A stretch of 64,000 nt of DNA from Gaiellales bacterium (GTDB taxonomy: Bacteria > Actinomycetota > Thermoleophilia > Gaiellales > JAICJC01): contig DASWRM010000073.1 in the NCBI GenBank assembly GCA_036403155.1, positions 1 to 64,000 of the forward strand, given 5' to 3'. Of this stretch, positions 2,240-60,716 are shown piece after piece. Position 1 is the stretch's first letter; each line of letters begins with the position of its first letter. The translations under genes and the position numbers were made by a program. Below the pieces are notes generated by a model. It saw only the letters and a list, made by a program, of their open reading frames with translations. It searched no databases and was not told the DNA's origin.

Positions 2240-4285
2240 GTGACCGGACGCATCGGCATCGACGTCGGGGGCACCTTCACGGATGCCGTGATCGTGCACG
2301 ACGGCGGCGTCCGCATCGCCAAGGTGCGGTCGACGCCGGAGCGCATCGAGGACGGGTTCATGGACGCGCTGCGCGAGCTGACCGGCCGTGCGTCCACGCC
2401 GGCGTCCGAGATCGGCTACCTCGCGCACGGTTCCACCGTGGCCACCAACGCGATCGTCCAGCGCCGCCTGGCGCGGACGGCGCTGATCACCAACGATGGA
2501 TTTCGCGACGTCCTCACGATTGGCACGCAGATGCGCCGCAACGTCTACGACCTGTGGACGCCGGAGCCCGCGCCGATCGTTCCGCGCGCGCTGTGCGTCG
2601 GCGTGGCCGGCCGGATCGATGCCGATGGGCGCGAGATCGCCCCGCTCGACGAGGACGGCGTCGTGCGCGCCGCGGAGCTGCTCCGCCAGGAGGAGGTGGA
2701 GGCGGTCGCCGTGTCGCTGCTCTTCTCGTTCCTGAACCCGGCGCACGAGCTGCGGATCGGCGAGATCCTGGCCGAGCGCCTGCCGGGCGTGCCGGTGTCG
2801 CTCTCCTCGCGGGTCGCACCCGAGGTGCGCGAGTACATACGCGCCTCCACCACGGCGCTGAACGCATCCCTGCTGCCGCTGCTCGGCGCCTACATCGAAG
2901 CGGTGAGCGGCGAGGTCGAGCGGGAGGGCGTGCCCGTGCCGCTCTACCTGATGCAGACCAACGGCGGCGTGACGCCGGCCGACCGGGCGCAGCAGCTCCC
3001 GATCGGACTGGCGGCCTCGGGGCCGGCCGCCGGCGTGACCGGCGGCGCGCGCCTCGCCGGGCTGGTCGGCGAGGAGAGCGCATTGACGTTCGACATGGGC
3101 GGCACCACGGCCGACATCGGCCTTGTCCTCGACGGCCGGCCGCAGGTGCGCTTCAGCGGCGAGGCGGCCGGCATGCCGGTGAACCTGCCGCAGATCGACG
3201 TGCTGTGCATCGGCGCGGGCGGCGGCTCGATCGCGACCGTCGACGAGTTCGGCGCACTGCGCGTGGGACCCGAGAGCGCGGGAGCGGTGCCCGGCCCGGC
3301 GGCCTACGGCGCCGGGGGCCGGTCGGCGACGGTCACGGACGCCCACGTGGTGCTGGGCACGCTGAGCGAGGACGGCGGGCTGGCCGGCGGCATCCCGCTC
3401 GACGGCGACCGGGCGCGCGAGGCCGTGGCCCGGTCGGTGGGCGAGCCGCTCGGGATCGAGGCCGAGCAGGCCGCCGAGGCGATCCTCCGCATCGCCAACG
3501 CGAACATGGCGAATGCGCTGCGTGTCATGTCCGTCGCCCGCGGGCACGATCCGCGGCGGTTCGCGCTCGTTGCCATCGGCGGCGCGGGGCCGATGCATGC
3601 GTGCGCGCTGGCCGACGAGCTCAGCATCCCTCGTGTCGTCGTCCCGCGCTACCCCGGCGTGGCGGCCGCCATGGGGCTGCTCGCCACCGACGTCCGCCAC
3701 GACCTTCGCCGCAGCTGGCTGCGACCGGCCGCCGAGGTGGCCGCGGAGGAGCTGGACGCCGAGCTGGCGCGGCTCGAGGGCGAGGCGAACGAGCTGCTCG
3801 CAACGTCGTCGGCCGACGCCCGTGGCCACGAGCTGCAGTACGAGCTGGACATGCGCTATCGCGGACAGGCGTACAACCTCACGGTGCCGCTCGGCCCGCG
3901 TCCGGTCACGACGGCATCGCTGGCCGCCGCGGCGCAGGCATTCGAGGACGAGCACCAGCGTCTGTACGACTACACGCCCGAGGTGACCGACACCGACATC
4001 GTCACGCTGCGGCTGCGAGCCGTCGCCCGCATCCCCGACATCGACTGGGAGGCCGTGTCCGAGCGTCCGCCCGCCGCCGGCGCGTCGCAGCGCCGCGTCT
4101 GGGCAGGTGGCGAGTGGGGCACCTGGACCGCGGTCGCGCGCGCCGACCTGGCTGACGGCGACCGGCTCGACCCCGAGTCGATCGTCGAGCAGGAGGACAC
4201 GACGGTGGTCGTGCCCGCCGGCTGGCACGGCACGGTCGCAGCCGCGGGAACGCTCGTGCTCGAGCGGGACGGCGCCGCCGCGTGA
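2240..4285 (+). CDS. hyuA: Hydantoinase/oxoprolinase subunit A
   Basis: 681 residues with the hydantoinase A N-terminal signature at the very start (GIDVGGTFTDAV, residues 6-17), an actin-like ATP-binding motif seen again as FDMGGTTADIG, and the GAGGGSIA loop before the C-terminal half. In this family subunit A supplies the ATP-using ring-opening function and pairs with subunit B for 5-oxoproline, hydantoin or related cyclic amides. The GTG at 2240 puts the motif at the N terminus; the longer frame upstream has no coding character. Its stop overlaps hyuB by 4 nt. First gene of a seven-gene operon ending in an ABC importer, so the substrate is probably imported by that system. Exact substrate not readable. 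Confidence 0.93.
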   Translation: MTGRIGIDVGGTFTDAVIVHDGGVRIAKVRSTPERIEDGFMDALRELTGRASTPASEIGYLAHGSTVATNAIVQRRLARTALITNDGFRDVLTIGTQMRRNVYDLWTPEPAPIVPRALCVGVAGRIDADGREIAPLDEDGVVRAAELLRQEEVEAVAVSLLFSFLNPAHELRIGEILAERLPGVPVSLSSRVAPEVREYIRASTTALNASLLPLLGAYIEAVSGEVEREGVPVPLYLMQTNGGVTPADRAQQLPIGLAASGPAAGVTGGARLAGLVGEESALTFDMGGTTADIGLVLDGRPQVRFSGEAAGMPVNLPQIDVLCIGAGGGSIATVDEFGALRVGPESAGAVPGPAAYGAGGRSATVTDAHVVLGTLSEDGGLAGGIPLDGDRAREAVARSVGEPLGIEAEQAAEAILRIANANMANALRVMSVARGHDPRRFALVAIGGAGPMHACALADELSIPRVVVPRYPGVAAAMGLLATDVRHDLRRSWLRPAAEVAAEELDAELARLEGEANELLATSSADARGHELQYELDMRYRGQAYNLTVPLGPRPVTTASLAAAAQAFEDEHQRLYDYTPEVTDTDIVTLRLRAVARIPDIDWEAVSERPPAAGASQRRVWAGGEWGTWTAVARADLADGDRLDPESIVEQEDTTVVVPAGWHGTVAAAGTLVLERDGAAA

Positions 4286-34893: not shown

Positions 34894-34900
34894 TGGCGGC

Positions 34901-34933
34901 GTGAGAAAAACGTGCCAGGCACGTTTTTCTCAC
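34901..34933. repeat. Perfect 33-bp palindrome (REP-like)
   Basis: 16-bp arms, GTGAGAAAAACGTGCC and its exact complement, around a single central A. It lies between convergent stop codons (34893 plus, 34939 minus) and could serve as a bidirectional terminator since each arm ends in an A/T run. A close relative (same GTGA, A-run, TGCC-N-GGCA, T-run, TCAC plan) sits inside a coding sequence at 56540-56574, which argues for a mobile REP-type element. Confidence 0.85.
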
Positions 34934-34938
34934 CGGCC

Positions 34939-52864: not shown

Positions 52865-54169
52865 ATGATGCCGCCAAGCTACGACTACGGCTTCTTCTCA
52901 TACGAGTCCAAGGACGACTTCCTGAACCGCTCGCGCGAGTTCTGGAACCCGGACAAGACGGACTTCTGGCAGGACGCGGGCGTCGATCTCGTGATTGACC
53001 GCCGCGAGGGCTACTTCTTCTGGGACATGGCCGGCCGCCGGTTGATCGACCTGCACCTGAACGGCGGCACCTACAACCTCGGCCACCGCAATCCCGAGCT
53101 GATCGCCACGCTCGAGCAGGCGATGGCCCGGTTCGACATCGGTAACCACCACTTCCCCGCGCTGGCCCGCACCGCGCTCGCCGAGGCGCTGGTCAAGACG
53201 TGCCCGCCGAACATGCGGCGTGTCATCTACGCAGCGGGCGGGGGCGAGGCCACCGACATCGCGATCAAGACCGCGCGCCACACGCGCCAGCGGCGCAAGA
53301 TCGTCTCGATCGTCAAGGGTTACCACGGCCACACCGGCCTGGCCGTCGCAACCGGCGACGACCGCTTCTCGAAGCTGTTCCTCGCCGACCGGCCCGAGGA
53401 GTTCGTCCACGTCCCGTTCAACGACCTGGCCGCGATGGAGGAAGCCCTGCGCGGAGGCGACGTCGCCGGCGTGCTGCTCGAGACGATCCCCGCCACGTAC
53501 GGCTTCCCGCTCCCCGAGCCCGGCTACCTCCAGTCCGTGAAGCGGCTCTGCGAGCGGTACGGCGCGCTCTACATCGCCGACGAGGTGCAGACGGGGCTCA
53601 TGCGCACCGGCGAGATGTGGGGCATCACCAAGGCCGCGGTCGAGCCCGACATCATGGTGGTCGGCAAGGGCATCACCGGCGGCATGTACCCGATCGCGTG
53701 CGTCGTCGTCTCGGAGGAGTGCTCCGCGTGGCTGAAGGAGGACGGCTTCGGCCACATCTCGACCGGCGGCGGCGCCGAGCTCGGCTGCATCGTGGGGCTC
53801 AAGGTGCTCGAGATCTGCGGCCGGCCGGAGGTGCGCTCGATGGTGCACTACATCGCCGACCGGTTCGGCCAGGGGCTCCGCGCCATCCAGGCCGCGTACC
53901 CGGACTGGTTCGTCGGCATCCGCCAGGACGGCGTGGTCATGGGGCTCGAGTTCGACCATCCGCAGGGCGCGAAGATGGTGATGAAGCACCTCTACGAGAA
54001 CGGCGTCTGGGCGATCTTCTCGACGCTCGACCCGCGCGTGCTGCAGTTCAAGCCGGGCATCCTCCAGGGCCCCGAGCTGGTGGATGAGACGCTCGACCGC
54101 ACCGAGGTGTCGATCGGCCAGGCGCTGGCCGAGCTGCGCACCGGCCGGGTGGCGGCGGGGGTGTCATGA
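52865..54169 (+). CDS. Class III PLP enzyme (aminotransferase fold; probable amino-alcohol-phosphate phospholyase)
   Basis: 434 residues. Fold type I: AAGGGEATDIAIKTARH PLP-phosphate loop, YHGHTG, the cofactor Asp in IADEVQTGLMRTG and the PLP lysine Lys268 in VVGKGITGG. In the mycobacterial aminoacetone/aminopropanol compartment the class III enzyme is thought to act on phosphorylated 1-amino-2-propanol, releasing ammonia, phosphate and propionaldehyde, like ethanolamine-phosphate phospholyase. First gene of the operon; its -10 box is 5 nt from ATG 52865, so the mRNA should be leaderless. Overlaps the next gene by 4 nt. Confidence 0.85.
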   Translation: MMPPSYDYGFFSYESKDDFLNRSREFWNPDKTDFWQDAGVDLVIDRREGYFFWDMAGRRLIDLHLNGGTYNLGHRNPELIATLEQAMARFDIGNHHFPALARTALAEALVKTCPPNMRRVIYAAGGGEATDIAIKTARHTRQRRKIVSIVKGYHGHTGLAVATGDDRFSKLFLADRPEEFVHVPFNDLAAMEEALRGGDVAGVLLETIPATYGFPLPEPGYLQSVKRLCERYGALYIADEVQTGLMRTGEMWGITKAAVEPDIMVVGKGITGGMYPIACVVVSEECSAWLKEDGFGHISTGGGAELGCIVGLKVLEICGRPEVRSMVHYIADRFGQGLRAIQAAYPDWFVGIRQDGVVMGLEFDHPQGAKMVMKHLYENGVWAIFSTLDPRVLQFKPGILQGPELVDETLDRTEVSIGQALAELRTGRVAAGVS

Positions 54170-55668
54170 GCGAGCGCGCGGCCGAGACACCGGGCGCTCC
54201 GCGCGCCCGCATGATGCTCCAGCGGGCGCACTGGGCGGCGACCGCCTTCGCGGCGTACGACCGCGACCGCACCCGCCGCATCGTCGATGCGGTGGCCGAC
54301 GAGGCATACCGAAACGCGGAACGGTATGCCGAATGGGGCGTCCGCGAGACCGGCATGGGCGTGGTCGAGCACAAGCGCCGCAAGAACGAGGCCTGCTCGC
54401 ACGGCCTGGTCGACTGGTACGGCGGGCACGACTACGTGAGCGCACGGGTCGACGCCGAGCGCAAGATCGTCGAGCTGCCGCGCCCCGCCGGGGTGGTGCT
54501 CGCGCTGACGCCGTCGACGAACCCGATCGCGACGGTCTACTTCAAGGTGCTGCTCTCGCTGATGACGCGAAACGCGGTCGTGGTCAGCCCGCATCCGCTT
54601 GCGCGCGAGGTGTCGGTCGATGCCGTGCAGCACCTGGCTCGCGCGGCCGTGGCCGCGGGTGCGCCGGACGGCTGCATCCAGGTGGTGGAGGAGCCCACCA
54701 TTCCCCTGATCGAGGCGCTGATGAGCGACGCGACGACGGACGTGATCCTCGCCACCGGCGGGGTGGCCGTCGTGCGCGCGGCCTACCGTTCCGGGAACCC
54801 GGCGATCGGTGTCGGTCCGGGCAACGTCCCGGCGCTGGTCGACCGCACCGCGGACCCGGCGCAGGCGGCGCGGCACCTCGCCGAGTCCAAGGCGTTCGAC
54901 AACTCGATCCTGTGCACGAACGAGTCGTGTGCGATCGTCGAGGAGCCCGTCTACGACGCGTTCGTCCGCGAGCTCGGCCGGCACCACGCGCACGTGCTCG
55001 ACGAGGAGGGCGCCGCCGCCGTGCGCGACGCGCTGTACCCGGACGGGCGCATGCGCGTCGACCTGGTCGGGAAGGATGCGACCGTGCTTGCGGCCGAGGC
55101 GGGCGTACGCGTCCCGCCGACGACGAGGGTGCTGGTCGCGCCGTTCGGTCTGGTCGTCCCCGAGGAGCCGCTCGCCCGCGAGAAGCTGTTCCCGCTGCTC
55201 GGGCTCGTGAAGGTGCCGGACGCCGGCCGGGGCATCGCGGCCGCGCTGGCCATGCTGCGGATCGGCGGCGCAGGCCACTCCGCCGTCATCCACTCGACCG
55301 ACGCGCGCACGATCATGGCCTACGGCGCCGCTGTCCGCGTCCTCCGCGTCGCCGTGAACGTCGGCGGCAGCACGGGGTCGGCGGGCCTGGACACCAACCT
55401 GGCGCCGACGATGACGATCGGCACGGGGTTCTACGGGCGGTCGTCGCTCGGCGAGAACCTGGAGCCCCGGCACCTCGTCAACTTCACGCGGATCGCGTAC
55501 GCGAGCGACCCGGCGGAGGCGTTCGGCGACTTCGCCGGTCTCGAGCCGTGGAGCGCCGCGCCCGAGCCGGCGGTGGCTGCGCCGGTGCCCTCGTTCGAGG
55601 CCGGGCTGGCGCGCGAGGAGATCCGCCGCGTCGTCCTCCAGGAGCTGCGGGAGCTGGTGCGACGCTGA
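54166..55668 (+). CDS. Acylating aldehyde dehydrogenase with C-terminal BMC targeting helix
   Basis: 500 residues, PduP/EutE-type CoA-acylating aldehyde dehydrogenase. PRPAGVVLALTPSTNPIATV cofactor region, ILATGG, and catalytic Cys250 in NSILCTNES. After residue about 460 comes a Pro/Ala linker and a terminal amphipathic helix (residues about 480-500, GLAREEIRRVVLQEL...), the plan of encapsulation peptides. It should convert propionaldehyde, or another C3 aldehyde, to acyl-CoA inside the shell. Overlaps the PLP-enzyme stop by 4 nt and the BMC-T start by 1 nt. Confidence 0.92.
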   Translation: MSERAAETPGAPRARMMLQRAHWAATAFAAYDRDRTRRIVDAVADEAYRNAERYAEWGVRETGMGVVEHKRRKNEACSHGLVDWYGGHDYVSARVDAERKIVELPRPAGVVLALTPSTNPIATVYFKVLLSLMTRNAVVVSPHPLAREVSVDAVQHLARAAVAAGAPDGCIQVVEEPTIPLIEALMSDATTDVILATGGVAVVRAAYRSGNPAIGVGPGNVPALVDRTADPAQAARHLAESKAFDNSILCTNESCAIVEEPVYDAFVRELGRHHAHVLDEEGAAAVRDALYPDGRMRVDLVGKDATVLAAEAGVRVPPTTRVLVAPFGLVVPEEPLAREKLFPLLGLVKVPDAGRGIAAALAMLRIGGAGHSAVIHSTDARTIMAYGAAVRVLRVAVNVGGSTGSAGLDTNLAPTMTIGTGFYGRSSLGENLEPRHLVNFTRIAYASDPAEAFGDFAGLEPWSAAPEPAVAAPVPSFEAGLAREEIRRVVLQELRELVRR

Positions 55669-56273
55669 TGGCAGAGCTGCGCTCGTTCATCTTCATCGAC
55701 CAGATGCAGCCGCAGACCATGTGCTATCTCGGCTCCTGGATCCGCGGCCGCCTGCCGCGTACCGGCGTCGCCGCGCAGATCATCGAGATCGCGCCCGGTC
55801 TCGACATTGAGCCGCTCACCGACGTCGCGCTCAAGTCGACCGAGGTGCAGGCCGGCATCCTCATCGTCGAGCGCCAGTTCGGCTACCTCGAGATCCACTC
55901 CCGCTCGACGGCGGCCGTGCAGGCAGCGAGCGAGGCGGTGCTGACGGCGCTCGGCGCGACGCCCGACGACGCCACGAAGCCGCAGATCCTGGCGTCGGAG
56001 CTGATCACGCGCATCGACCACCAGCACGCGTTCCTGATCAACCGGAACAAGCTCGGCTCCATGGCGCTGCCGGGCGAGTCGCTGTTCGTGCTGGAGATGC
56101 AGCCGGCCTCGTATGCGATATTGGCAACGAACGAGGCCGAGAAGGCCGCGCGGATCAAGGTGGTCGACTACCGGATGATCGGGGCGACCGGGCGGGTGTA
56201 TCTGGCCGGGCTCGAGGCCGACGTCCGCACCGCCGGGGACGCTGCGGTCGCCGCGCTGGGAGGTGTCGCATGA
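55668..56273 (+). CDS. BMC-T tandem-domain shell protein 1
   Basis: 201 residues, two BMC-fold halves (about 5-105 and 125-200) forming pseudohexameric trimers. First half: FIFIDQMQPQTMCYLG, LTDVALKSTEVQAGILIVERQFG; second: SMALPGESLFVLEMQPASYA, VVDYRMIGATGRVYLAG. Motif order and an insertion in the first half resemble RMM-type BMC-T proteins. It is a paralogue of the second BMC-T at 57497 (shared ERQFG, SM-LPGE and MIGA-GR). ATG at 55668 overlaps the dehydrogenase stop (TGATG). Forms large shell tiles and possibly the gated pore for cofactors. Confidence 0.88.
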   Translation: MAELRSFIFIDQMQPQTMCYLGSWIRGRLPRTGVAAQIIEIAPGLDIEPLTDVALKSTEVQAGILIVERQFGYLEIHSRSTAAVQAASEAVLTALGATPDDATKPQILASELITRIDHQHAFLINRNKLGSMALPGESLFVLEMQPASYAILATNEAEKAARIKVVDYRMIGATGRVYLAGLEADVRTAGDAAVAALGGVA

Positions 56274-56941
56274 CCGGCGGCGAGGAGAACCTGCTGCGCA
56301 ACGTGACGCGGGAGATGCTGGCCGAGGTGCTGCCCGGGCTGCTCGAGGAAGCCCTCGCCGGCCCGCGCGAGCCGAACGGCAACGGCCACACGACGTGGCA
56401 CACGACGACGCCGGCGGGCGGAGCGACGGACGTGTCGCAGGCGGTGCCCCACGACCCGCCGGGCGACCCCGTCGCGCAGGTGCCGGCGCCGCCGATCGCG
56501 GCGGTGCACCGGCCGCCCGGCTGGCAGGCCCAGGCGCCCGGTGAAAAAAAACTGCCTGGCACCTTTTTTTCACCCTCGCCTTCGGCCACACCTGCCTCAG
56601 CGCCCGACGGCGCCGATGTCGAGCAGGTCACCATCCGCTCGGATGCTGACCTCGACGCGTTCGTCCGGCAGCTCTCGCGGCGGCTCGAGAACCCGAAGGA
56701 TCGCATGGACATCATCTCCGGCCGCCTGCGCTTCTCGCTCGCGGGCGGGGGAGCGTCGCAGGCGCCGGGCGCGGGCCCGGTCATGCGCATCGAGAAGGGC
56801 GCGGTCACCGAGCGCCACGTCCGCGAGGCGGCCGAGAAGGGTGCGCGCCTGGTGCTGGCTCCCCGCGCGGTGCTCACGCCCATGGCCCGCGACCGTGCGC
56901 GAAGCCTGGGAGTCGAGATCGAGAAGGAGCGGCGATGCTGA
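56270..56941 (+). CDS. BMC-locus linker-rich protein with helical N terminus (function unknown)
   Basis: 223 residues in three parts. Residues 5-30 form an amphipathic helix (NLLRNVTREMLAEVLPGLLEE) like an encapsulation peptide. Residues 31-115 are a Pro/Ala/Thr-rich disordered linker. The C terminus (about 117-223) is folded: LDAFVRQLSRRLENPKDRMDI, then RIEKGAVTERHVREAAEKG and LVLAPRAVLTPMARDRARSLG, a module seen on several BMC-associated proteins. Residues 91-102 (GEKKLPGTFFSP) are encoded by an in-frame REP-like palindrome. Possible scaffold that bundles enzymes on the shell; not an enzyme by any motif I can see. Confidence 0.7.
   Translation: MTGGEENLLRNVTREMLAEVLPGLLEEALAGPREPNGNGHTTWHTTTPAGGATDVSQAVPHDPPGDPVAQVPAPPIAAVHRPPGWQAQAPGEKKLPGTFFSPSPSATPASAPDGADVEQVTIRSDADLDAFVRQLSRRLENPKDRMDIISGRLRFSLAGGGASQAPGAGPVMRIEKGAVTERHVREAAEKGARLVLAPRAVLTPMARDRARSLGVEIEKERRC
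56540..56574. repeat. In-frame REP-like palindrome inside BMC-locus gene
   Basis: 35-bp inverted repeat: GGTGAAAAAAAACTGCC, T, GGCACCTTTTTTTCACC, with two mismatched pairs. It starts exactly at codon 91 of the linker protein and together with one more base spans 12 codons. Same design as the intergenic palindrome at 34901-34933. Its A and T runs stand out from the GC-rich gene. Confidence 0.85.
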
Positions 56942-57195
56942 GAGCCACCGTGACGGGCTCAGTCTGGGCGACGAAGCGGATCGACAACGTCCCCCACGGG
57001 GCCTTTCTCGAAGTCGAGGTCGAGGGCGGTGCCAGGATGGTCGCCTTCGACGTGCTCGGCAGCGGCGTCGGCGAGCGGGTGCTCGTCGCCAGCGGATCGG
57101 TCGCATCGGGCTGGTTCCAGGACCATCCCCCGATCGACGCGCTGATCATCGGCTCGATCGACGAGCAGCGAACCACCGCGCCGTCCGGCGCATGA
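56935..57195 (+). CDS. BMC-P pentameric vertex protein (EutN/CcmL family)
   Basis: 86 residues, OB-like BMC-P fold. [22 protein letters not shown] start, [22 protein letters not shown] and the pentamer-tip segment [13 protein letters not shown], all standard for EutN/CcmL. Caps the twelve vertices of the icosahedral shell. ATG at 56935 follows GAAGGAGC, and the start overlaps the stop of the linker gene by 7 nt. Only one BMC-P is present in the locus. Confidence 0.94.
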
Positions 57196-57208
57196 CAGGA
57201 GGATCGTT

Positions 57209-57496
57209 ATGGCAGACCACGCACTCGGCATGATCGAGACCAAGGGGTACGTGGCGGCCCTTGCCGCCGCAGACGCCATGGTGAAGGCGGCCAACGTCAG
57301 CATCGTCGGCCGCGAAGAGGTGGGCGACGGGCTCGTGTCGGTCGTCATCCAGGGCGACGTCGGCGCCGTGAAGGCGGCGACCGAGGCGGGCGCCGAGACG
57401 GCGTCGACGGTCGGCGAGATCGTCTCCGTCCACGTGATCCCGCGGCCCCATCCCGACCTCGACCGCCACTTCGTCCACCAGCACGCGAACGCATAG
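57209..57496 (+). CDS. BMC-H hexameric shell protein
   Basis: 95 residues, canonical single BMC domain. [26 protein letters not shown] is the shared first helix-strand, followed by [21 protein letters not shown] and the C-terminal [15 protein letters not shown]. The lysine in AADAMVKAA marks the hexamer edge. ATG at 57209 has a consensus AGGAGG 6 nt upstream, the best ribosome site of the locus, in keeping with the need for many copies. The only BMC-H in this locus. Confidence 0.96.
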
Positions 57497-58147
57497 GTGA
57501 ACGCGGCACCGGACACCGCGGTCCAGCTGCGGGTCTACCTGCCGATCCCCCGCCTGGGGCGGCAGTTCGCGGCCTACCTGGGCACGCCCACCCGTGCGCG
57601 CGGCTACCCGCCGATCGAGGGCGACAACGCGCTGATCATCGAGGTCGCGCCGGCGCTCGCGATCGAGCGGATCACGGACCTGGCGTTGCGGTCGGTGCCC
57701 GAGGTCGAGCCGGGCATCCTCTACGTCGAGCGGCAGTTCGGCGTGCTCGAGGTGCACCACGCCGAGCAGGAGCTGGTCGACCGCGCCGGGCAGGCGATCC
57801 TCGACGGGATCGGCGCGACGCCCGCAGACGCGCTGCGACCGAATATCCTCTACGCCGACGTCATCGAGGACATCACCGATCAGCATGCCGTCATCATCAA
57901 CCGCAACCGCGACGCGTCCATGGTGCTCCCCGGCGAGACCCTGCTCGTCTACGAGGTCACGCCGGCCCTGTTCGCCGCCGTCGCGGCCAACGCCGCCGAG
58001 CGGGTGGCGCCGGAGGCGACGCTCGTGATCGTGTCGATGATCGGCGCCGCCGGCCGCATCTACATCAGCGGCGACCGCGACAGCGTTGTCCGGGCGGGCG
58101 ACGAGATCGCGCGCGTGCTGCAGTCCGTGGAGGGCCGTGAGCACTGA
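57497..58147 (+). CDS. BMC-T tandem-domain shell protein 2
   Basis: 216 residues, two BMC halves; shares ERQFG, SMVLPGE and MIGAAGR with the first BMC-T, implying an old duplication. N-terminal VYLPIPRLGRQFAAYLGTPTRARGYPP is longer than in BMC-T 1 and may line a pore. GTG start directly follows the BMC-H stop (TAGGTG). Its tail overlaps the kinase start by 11 nt. Two BMC-T types could form mixed or stacked tiles. Confidence 0.88.
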   Translation: MNAAPDTAVQLRVYLPIPRLGRQFAAYLGTPTRARGYPPIEGDNALIIEVAPALAIERITDLALRSVPEVEPGILYVERQFGVLEVHHAEQELVDRAGQAILDGIGATPADALRPNILYADVIEDITDQHAVIINRNRDASMVLPGETLLVYEVTPALFAAVAANAAERVAPEATLVIVSMIGAAGRIYISGDRDSVVRAGDEIARVLQSVEGREH

Positions 58148-59123
58148 CCAGGCGGCGATCGACGAGCTGGCGCGCGCGGCGCTCGAGCCGTACGGGCTCG
58201 ACCCCGGCTCGTCCGTCGACCTGATCAACGTCTCCGAGAACTGGACGTACCGGATCGACACGCCGGCCGGCGGGCGGTACGCGCTGCGGGTGCACCGGCC
58301 CGGATACCACACGGCCGACGAGATCGAGTCGGAGCTGCGATGGATCGACGCGCTCCGCGAGGACGGCGCGGTCGAGACGGCGCATGCGGTGCCGGGCGCC
58401 TCCGGTGCGCGCGTGTGCCAGGTGACAACGCCGTCGCTCGGCGAGCGGAACGTCGTGCTGTTCGAGTGGCTGACGGGGGAGATGCCGGACCCCGAGGGGC
58501 ACGACCTGCTGCCCGGATTCCGGACGCTCGGCGCGGTGTCGGCTCGGATGCACGCGCACGCCCGCGCGTGGACGCTGCCGGGAGCGTTCCGGCGGTTCTC
58601 GTGGGACTACGAGACGACGCTCGGCGCGGCCGGTCACTGGGGCCGCTGGCAGGACGGGCTCGGCATGGATGCCGGGGCGCGCGACGTGCTGGGGAGGCTG
58701 GATCGTGTGCTCCGCCGCCGGCTGGAGCGGTTCGGCACCGGCGCGGAGCGGTTCGGGCTCGTGCACGCCGACATCCGGCTCGCCAACCTGCTCGTGGACG
58801 GCGACCGGGTGCGCGTGATCGACTTCGACGACTGCGGCTTCTCGTGGTTCATGTACGACTTCGCGACCACCGTGTCGTTCATCGAGGACCACCCGCAGGT
58901 GCCCGAGCTGAAGCAGGCCTGGGTGGAGGGATACCGGTCGGTGGCGCCGCTGTCGGGGGAGGACGAGTCGGAGCTGGACACGTTCGTCATGCTGCGCCGG
59001 CTGCTGCTGGTGGCATGGATCGGCTCGCACCACGAGTTCGCGACCGAGGCGGCCGAGCTGGGCGCCGGGTTCACCGAGGGCTCCTGCCACCTGGCGGAGC
59101 GCTACCTGTCCACCCATTCCTAG
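58137..59123 (+). CDS. APH-fold kinase, probable (S)-1-amino-2-propanol kinase
   Basis: 328 residues, aminoglycoside-phosphotransferase fold. Nucleotide lobe [17 protein letters not shown] and [10 protein letters not shown]; Brenner motif His210-Ala-Asp212 in [11 protein letters not shown] with Asn217, and metal Asp229 in VIDFDDCG. The mycobacterial aminoacetone compartment encodes a kinase of this fold shown to phosphorylate 1-amino-2-propanol; same position here. GTG at 58137 overlaps BMC-T 2 by 11 nt. It makes the phosphate ester for the PLP enzyme. Substrate assignment by context. Confidence 0.87.
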
Positions 59124-59136
59124 GAGGAGCTGCTTG

Positions 59137-59916
59137 ATGTTCACGCCGGTCGAGGGGCGCACGGTGATCGTCACGGGAGGCACCAAGGGCATCGGCAAGG
59201 GGATCGCGACGTCGTTCCTGAAGGCGGGGGCGAACGTCGTCGTGACGGGGCGCGACGCGGCGGCCGGCGAGGCGGCGACGCGGGAGCTGAGCGGGCTCGG
59301 CGGGCAGGTGTCCTACGTGCAGGGCGACGTGGCCAGGGCGGCGGACTGCGAGCGGGTCGCGGCGGAGGCGGTCGAGCGGCACGGCGGGATCGACGTGCTG
59401 TGCGCGAACGCCGGCATCTTCCCCGACTCGAAGCTGATGGACATGACCGAGGACGAGATCGACCGGATCTTCGCCACCAACGTGAAGGGCACGATGCTGA
59501 GCGTGAAGGCGTGCGTGCCTGCGCTCGAGCGCAGCGGCCATGGGCGGGTGATCGTGACCAGCTCGATCACCGGGCCGTTCACGGGGTTCCCGGGCTGGTC
59601 GCACTACGGCGCGACGAAGGCGGCGCAGCTCGGCTTCATCCGCACGGCGTGCATCGAGCTGGCGAAGCGAAGGATCACGATCAACGCTGTCCTGCCTGGC
59701 AACGTCATCTCGGAAGGGCTCGACGAGCTGGGGGAGGACTACCGCAAGCAGATGGAATCCTCGATCCCGCTGGGCAGGCTCGGGGACGTGTCCGAGATCG
59801 GCGCGACGGCGCTGTTCCTGGCGACGGACGAAGCCGGGTACATCACCGGGCAGACGATCGTCGTCGACGGCGGGCAGACGGTGCCGGAGTCGCTGATGGC
59901 CCTGCAGGCGGTGTAG
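59137..59916 (+). CDS. SDR-family dehydrogenase, probable amino-propanol/aminoacetone oxidoreductase
   Basis: 259 residues. TGGTKGIG cofactor motif at 13-20, NAG at 91-93, catalytic Ser142/143, Tyr157 and Lys161 in [11 protein letters not shown] after strand 2 hints at NADP. In the RMM/AUM scheme an SDR interconverts aminoacetone and 1-amino-2-propanol. ATG at 59137 lies 9 nt after AGGAGG; a TTG one codon earlier is less likely. C-terminal [17 protein letters not shown]. Overlaps the regulator gene by 1 nt. It lacks an obvious targeting extension. Confidence 0.88.
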
Positions 59917-60716
59917 TGGCGCGGCCGGGCGATCCGGTGCCCGGGGCGCCGGGTGGTCTGGCGCCGCTCGGGCCGGCGGCCGCGGCGCTGCGCGACCGGC
60001 TGGCGGCCGAGATCGCGGGCGGCGTGCAGACGGCGGGACAGCGCCTGGGCGCGGAGCGGGAGCTGGCGGAGCGGCTCGGGGTGAGCCGCTCGACGCTGCG
60101 GGCGGCGCTCGACGCGCTCGAGACCGAGGGCGCGGTGCACCGGGTGCGGGGCCGGTCGGGCGGCGTGTTCGTGGCGGAGCGGCGTGTCGAGCGCGACCTG
60201 ACGAGCCTGGCGGGCCTGCCGGCCTACCTGCGGCGGCAGGGGTTCCAGTCGAGCGCGCGGGTGCTGTCGACCGCGACGCTCGGAGCCGATGACGAGACGG
60301 CCGCGGCGCTCGGGCTCCAGGAGGGCGCGCTCGTGCTCGAGGTTGTGCGCGTGCGGCTGGCGGACGGCAAGCCGATCTCGCTCGAGCGGGCGCGGTTCCC
60401 GGCGCACCGGTTCCCCGGCCTGCTCGACCGCTCGCTGGGCGGGTCGATCTACGACATGCTCGAGGGCGAGTACGGGCTCAGCGCCGGCGAGGCCGAGGAG
60501 CGGGTCGAGGTCGTGGGCGCAACGGCGGCCGAGGCGCGCGTGCTCGAGCTGCGGCCCGGTGCGTCCCTGGTCGCGATCGGGCGGACGGCATGGGATGCCG
60601 AGGGCGAGGCGTTCGAGCACTCACGCGACCTGTTCCGGGCCGACCGCGTGCGGATCGTGGTGCGCGTGCGCGGGCGGACGCCGGCGGCGCTGGGATCGTC
60701 GGTCGAGGTGGTCTAG
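59916..60716 (+). CDS. GntR-family regulator (HutC/UTRA type) of the BMC locus
   Basis: 266 residues. N-terminal winged helix: LRDRLAAEIAGGVQTAGQRL, ERELAERLGVSRSTLRAALDALE, VHRVRGRSGGVFVAE. C-terminal UTRA-type ligand domain with QEGALVLEVVRVRLADGKPISLERARFP and FEHSRDLFRADRVRIVVRVRG. It probably senses a pathway amine or its phosphate and binds the inverted repeat upstream of the first gene. GTG overlaps the SDR stop (TAGTG), so it is co-transcribed and possibly autoregulated. Confidence 0.92.
   Translation: MARPGDPVPGAPGGLAPLGPAAAALRDRLAAEIAGGVQTAGQRLGAERELAERLGVSRSTLRAALDALETEGAVHRVRGRSGGVFVAERRVERDLTSLAGLPAYLRRQGFQSSARVLSTATLGADDETAAALGLQEGALVLEVVRVRLADGKPISLERARFPAHRFPGLLDRSLGGSIYDMLEGEYGLSAGEAEERVEVVGATAAEARVLELRPGASLVAIGRTAWDAEGEAFEHSRDLFRADRVRIVVRVRGRTPAALGSSVEVV

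Follow-up and report, generated by a model that had tools for sequence, protein, structure and literature searches.

How did a 35-bp inverted repeat come to lie in frame within a gene of a bacterial-microcompartment operon, and does it serve a purpose there? The gene is located in the window, i.e. the whole stretch of 64 kb that was analysed (G000:C73:1-64000), from a genome of 3.2 Mb in 79 contigs, and belongs to an RMM1-like operon (RMM gene content was described in PMC4207490), composed of genes for a class-III aminotransferase, an aldehyde dehydrogenase, BMC-T, the linker protein, BMC-P, BMC-H, a second BMC-T, a phosphotransferase, a short-chain dehydrogenase and a GntR regulator, the last one assigned by eye. 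The linker protein has no family in Pfam or PDB, and in NCBIfam it has only a sub-threshold match (eut_hyp TIGR02536). In the AlphaFold model, built on a shallow alignment, residues 85-95 and 97-113 have pLDDT values below 50, and a fold comparison of this low-confidence model retrieved no match at an E-value of 0.001 or better. The coordinates of all features are given in the Table.

The repeat (GGTGAAAAAAAACTGCCTGGCACCTTTTTTTCACC) starts 270 nt into the ORF, precisely at codon 91, and keeps the frame, as the earlier note had stated; the ORF is intact. Its codons read GEKKLPGTFFSP (G-E-K-K-L-P-G-T-F-F-S-P), the twelfth taking one base from beyond the repeat, because the palindrome has 35 bp and not 36, and the palindrome is imperfect, with two unpaired positions per arm (AC opposite CC). 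Among 2115 operon codons AAA was counted zero times and TTT once, the two being codons that the insert uses; the near-absence of these repeat codons from the operon is consistent with an insert unadapted to host codon usage.

Matches to the linker protein were found in 13 of 151 genomes, some of them weak, and thus in a minority of the relatives searched; an orthologue is lacking in the same-genus genome. In the orthologues from relatives the N-terminal helix and the C-terminal region are kept, as is a VPAPPVA motif, and the linker region is poorly conserved and gap-rich. All nine orthologues that cover the linker lack the 12 residues of GEKKLPGTFFSP, which suggests an insertion into this gene. 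Of the earlier statement that the palindrome adds 12 codons, the in-frame reading of 12 codons therefore stands, and the added length is put forward as probable from the orthologues. In relatives, too, the linker gene is followed by that of BMC-P, an order that speaks against the repeat marking a join made in assembly.

Table. Features of the window, of repeat-bearing loci elsewhere in the source genome and of RAYT loci in relatives (RAYT, REP-associated tyrosine transposase).
Feature	Position	Strand	Remark
RMM1-like amino-alcohol microcompartment operon	52865-60716
BMC-T shell protein 1	55668..56273	+	upstream of linker gene, overlaps it by 4 bp
BMC-locus linker/scaffold-like protein	56270..56941	+	223 aa; helical N-terminus, then a disordered linker and a folded C-terminal region
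In-frame copy of the RAYT/TIRYT-type repeat, an imperfect palindrome of 35 bp	56540..56574	+	identical to the C33, C36 and C42 copies
12 codons read from the repeat	56540..56575	+	GEKKLPGTFFSP, residues 91-102; absent from nine orthologues
A8 run within coding sequence	56544..56551	+
T7 run within coding sequence	56564..56570	+
BMC-P (EutN/CcmL) pentamer gene	56935..57195	+	overlaps end of linker gene
BMC-H shell protein	57209..57496	+
Second repeat copy in window, intergenic	34900..34934	+	3' ends of two convergent genes 6 bp and 4 bp away
C49 RAYT gene	L060:2421-3143	-
Repeat copies around C49 RAYT	L060 2461, 3246, 3322
Hairpins flanking another RAYT (C42)	L064:1808-1832, 2528-2556		GGGGTCAGCCTTCAGGCTGACCCC and GGGGTCTGCCTGAAGGCAGACCCC
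Paired tagged copies	L065:1709/1823, L066:1651/1752, L058:1485/1593, L060:3246/3322		last pair 5' of C49 RAYT
Example RAYT loci of relatives	L096, L102, L103, L109, L117, L182, L194

The palindrome is not unique. A scan of the whole 3.2-Mb genome with the pattern TGCCNGGCANNTTTT gave 24 forward sites, against none with the reversed control, so that the repeat is not due to chance, and relaxed searches retrieved three further copies, two of them 5' of the C49 RAYT and one at C73:68750, just beyond the window, giving a total of at least 27. The 26 aligned copies all orient to a single consensus, GGTGARAAAAANN-TGCC-N-GGCA-NNTTTTTYTCACC, and four sites, including the linker copy, carry an identical 35-mer. 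The proposal of a dispersed family of mobile type, based on a related element near 34.9 kb, was thus borne out, since that element is real and the repeat is multi-copy. The family is restricted to the source genome among the 150 relatives searched, which include the only other genome of the same genus. In a sample of the phylum, the pattern was present in two of 397 genomes, the source genome and one other with a single occurrence. When the sequences on either side of the C42 and C69 copies were used to look for empty sites in the nearest relatives, only one flank matched, with no synteny, and no empty site was retrieved.

Five genes of the source genome encode Y1_Tnp proteins, and one of them, at C49, is a RAYT, the kind of gene that the earlier note had proposed to look for; it is physically flanked by copies of the repeat. 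Its product matches the Y1_Tnp profile above the cut-off (9.2e-10) and NF047646 below its cut-off (1.1e-14); the ORF has an intact HUH motif (HYH, in GNHYHL), the catalytic tyrosine motif YVAMNP and a C-terminal HTH of Sigma70_r4 type (residues 183-217, 28 bits against a cut-off of 24.1). Two 5' copies are in plus orientation and one 3' copy in minus, an inverted arrangement. The 3' copy lies within the RAYT ORF, near the C-terminus, where it encodes GEKKVPGTFFSP in the context ...AEQGEKKVPGTFFSPTDAV..., i.e. it is read in the same frame as the linker copy and the peptide differs by one residue. Another RAYT of the source genome, at C42, is flanked by hairpins of a different end type.

We also searched for the GTGCC-N-GGCAC core in the RAYT loci of relatives, in 41 kb near and 78 kb far from the genes, and found 17 occurrences within about 600 bp of a RAYT gene and none further away, in eight of the 42 unique loci. 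In the same-genus genome, the RAYT at L096 is bounded by a terminal inverted repeat of 26 bp with the core of the source genome and different arms, and other RAYTs carry GGGTC-N-GACCC or GGGAC-N-GTCCC in place of this core. The less expected feature is this RAYT-linked core, common to the order, with genome-specific arms. A literature search on the literal core GTGCC-N-GGCAC retrieved nothing on bacterial repeats among the papers listed. Throughout the order, palindromes with one of the three cores, and with arms that vary by genome, were observed on either side of RAYT genes.

We consider it very probable that a non-autonomous repeat spread by a RAYT landed in the disordered linker, kept the frame and persisted. 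The palindrome would be a mobile repeat that consists of a single terminal hairpin of REP/TIR type; a TIRYT-like RAYT, an HUH/Y1 tyrosine transposase whose gene persists at C49, would have spread it in the lineage, and one copy would have inserted into the microcompartment-locus protein where its linker is disordered and of low complexity. Since 35 is not divisible by 3, a clean insertion requires an additional base or some other change that compensates; survival would have depended on a net insertion that is frame-neutral, on the frame used having no stop and on a linker that tolerates 12 extra residues, and the insert is now predicted to be translated. By analogy, the C49 RAYT is the putative mover of the copies, and a single-strand route may be expected from the biochemistry of TnpA-REP (PMC8266576) and of IS200/IS605. 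We infer that the linker insert is probably a tolerated passenger, neutral or nearly so, and the insertion itself most likely a neutral trace of RAYT activity.

The earlier note went further and hypothesized that the palindrome was domesticated as a peptide, may alter the reach of the scaffold and, through the mRNA hairpin, may tune shell stoichiometry; as an alternative explanation, the peptide or the hairpin would have been co-opted for the reach of the linker or for the ratio of the downstream shell proteins. The copy does lie mid-operon, between BMC-T1 and BMC-P, and its predicted hairpin folds better than shuffled sequences (z -3.7); however, this hairpin is weaker than that of the intergenic copy (-13.1 vs -22.8 kcal/mol) and the region is free of terminator calls, so that a tuning of shell stoichiometry is a weak proposal. 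Domestication as a peptide and an altered reach of the scaffold found no support, the family being private to the genome and the codons those of the unmodified repeat, of which identical copies lie at other loci, in a linker that orthologues conserve poorly. On the whole, we regard domestication as unlikely.

A slippage switch, in which polymerase or ribosome slippage at the A8 and T7 tracts would yield full-length protein mixed with frameshifted products, we regard as decidedly unlikely. These tracts are the sole A/T runs of at least seven in the window, and the in-frame A-AAA-AAA has the hairpin immediately downstream; the computed outcomes are a 126-aa truncation for one additional A and a 320-aa frameshifted product for one A less. 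Nevertheless, slippage would be a by-product of the repeat sequence, with no comparative support. That the slippery A8 tract and the hairpin make the insert functional, so that a constant share of the linker protein is truncated or frameshifted, is very unlikely; if true, a mobile repeat would have made an isoform switch within a microcompartment operon.

The distribution of the copies relative to genes bears on a further alternative, according to which they are bidirectional elements resembling intrinsic terminators, multiplied by selection and not by transposition. Only two of the 27 copies are intragenic, the one in the C49 RAYT gene and the one in the linker gene, against an expected fraction of about 0.92, since random 35-mers fall inside predicted genes in about 92% of cases in the window (an approximate value from a simple codon-usage gene finder); copies inside genes are thus strongly removed or avoided, and the linker copy is a survivor in a permissive linker. 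Of the 25 extragenic copies, 17 have the 3' end of a gene at no more than 60 bp, where a fraction of 0.35 would be expected (P about 7e-4), and the repeat supplies the TGA stop of four genes (lysS-like, uvrB-like, VOC-like and one other, named by eye). This placement, as well as the layout of A-run, GC core and T-run, would suit terminators, but REPs, too, typically lie near the 3' ends of genes, and GTAG REPs combine this preference with stop-codon donation and intragenic copies (PMC3733652). Moreover, near-identical 35-mers are found at unrelated loci, copies flank a transposase gene, other RAYTs have the conserved core with quite different arms, one copy lies within a coding gene and there is no terminator call. 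A terminator role was rejected as the main explanation, and its likelihood is very small. That the segment is an ancestral part of the linker protein, palindromic by happenstance, would agree with its being in frame but is already contradicted by its absence from nine orthologues and by the repeat at about 26 other sites, and is scarcely credible.

We compared the family with known systems. The designation REP-like holds in that the repeat is a dispersed, multi-copy hairpin with a RAYT, its copies flanking a Y1 tyrosine transposase gene at C49, as in REPtrons and TIRtrons; it does not hold in the sense of a canonical REP, because the GTAG/GTGG foot is lacking: all aligned copies read [GC][GA]TG[AG]...TC[AT][CG][CG], and the GT[AG]G foot of the canonical GTAG REP is absent from every one of them. 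GTAG REPs and REPtrons (PMC2817692, PMC3733652) share with our repeat the short dispersed hairpins, the flanked RAYT, the preference for gene 3' ends and the donation of stops, as well as some copies inside ORFs and in frame inside tnpA-REP genes, whereas in the source genome the palindrome reaches its ends, without an unpaired foot, and the number of copies (about 27) is low.

The repeat best fits the TIR type of TIRYT genes, as judged by domain and repeat features. TIRYT/TIRtron repeats (Di Nocera et al., 2013; PMC3733652, section 16) and TnpA-REP subclass 2.1 (PMC6006769) have a Y1/HUH transposase with a C-terminal HTH and inverted repeats at both ends, both found at C49. Among TIR families, some multiply and are found in pairs; ends of GGGGWSAS type are present on other RAYTs of the source order. 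The source genome differs in its GTGCC-N-GGCAC core. PMC6006769 also reported no REP-like sequences at subclass 2.1 genes, and the sections of PMC3733652 and PMC6006769 consulted contain no in-frame intragenic TIR copy.

The kind of event is already described, since REPs and Rickettsia palindromes are known inside ORFs: in-frame palindromes are recorded for GTAG/CGTC REPs (PMC3733652) and REPs in frame inside tnpA-REP genes for subclass 2.4 (PMC6006769). The Rickettsia RPE (Ogata et al., 2000, cited in PMC10969869) are palindromic repeats translated in frame within unrelated proteins, and ours resembles them in lying in frame, with predicted translation, in an otherwise conserved gene whose orthologues are without it; RPE differ in having about 150 bp and many intragenic copies per genome, whereas the source repeat has 35 bp, is RAYT-linked and has one unrelated host gene. 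On our reading, the range of palindromes inserted in frame would now include a RAYT repeat of TIR type, and that of the host proteins one from a bacterial microcompartment; the order-wide conserved core with differing arms would offer a substrate set for repeat recognition by the little-studied, HTH-bearing (TIRYT) branch.

Among the contigs of GTDB r220, in a search that may omit the window's own genome, one Atribacteria contig, from a distant phylum, matched the pattern (PFIP01000167.1). No RAYT motif was seen in 8 kb of this contig; five copies with the same core and A/T-run arms lie within these 8 kb (L123:2268-6637). In the source genome, copies that occur in pairs, spaced by 75-114 bp, have in common a left tag before the palindrome, TGCAAC plus 9-10 nt, with variants, and solitary copies are without it.
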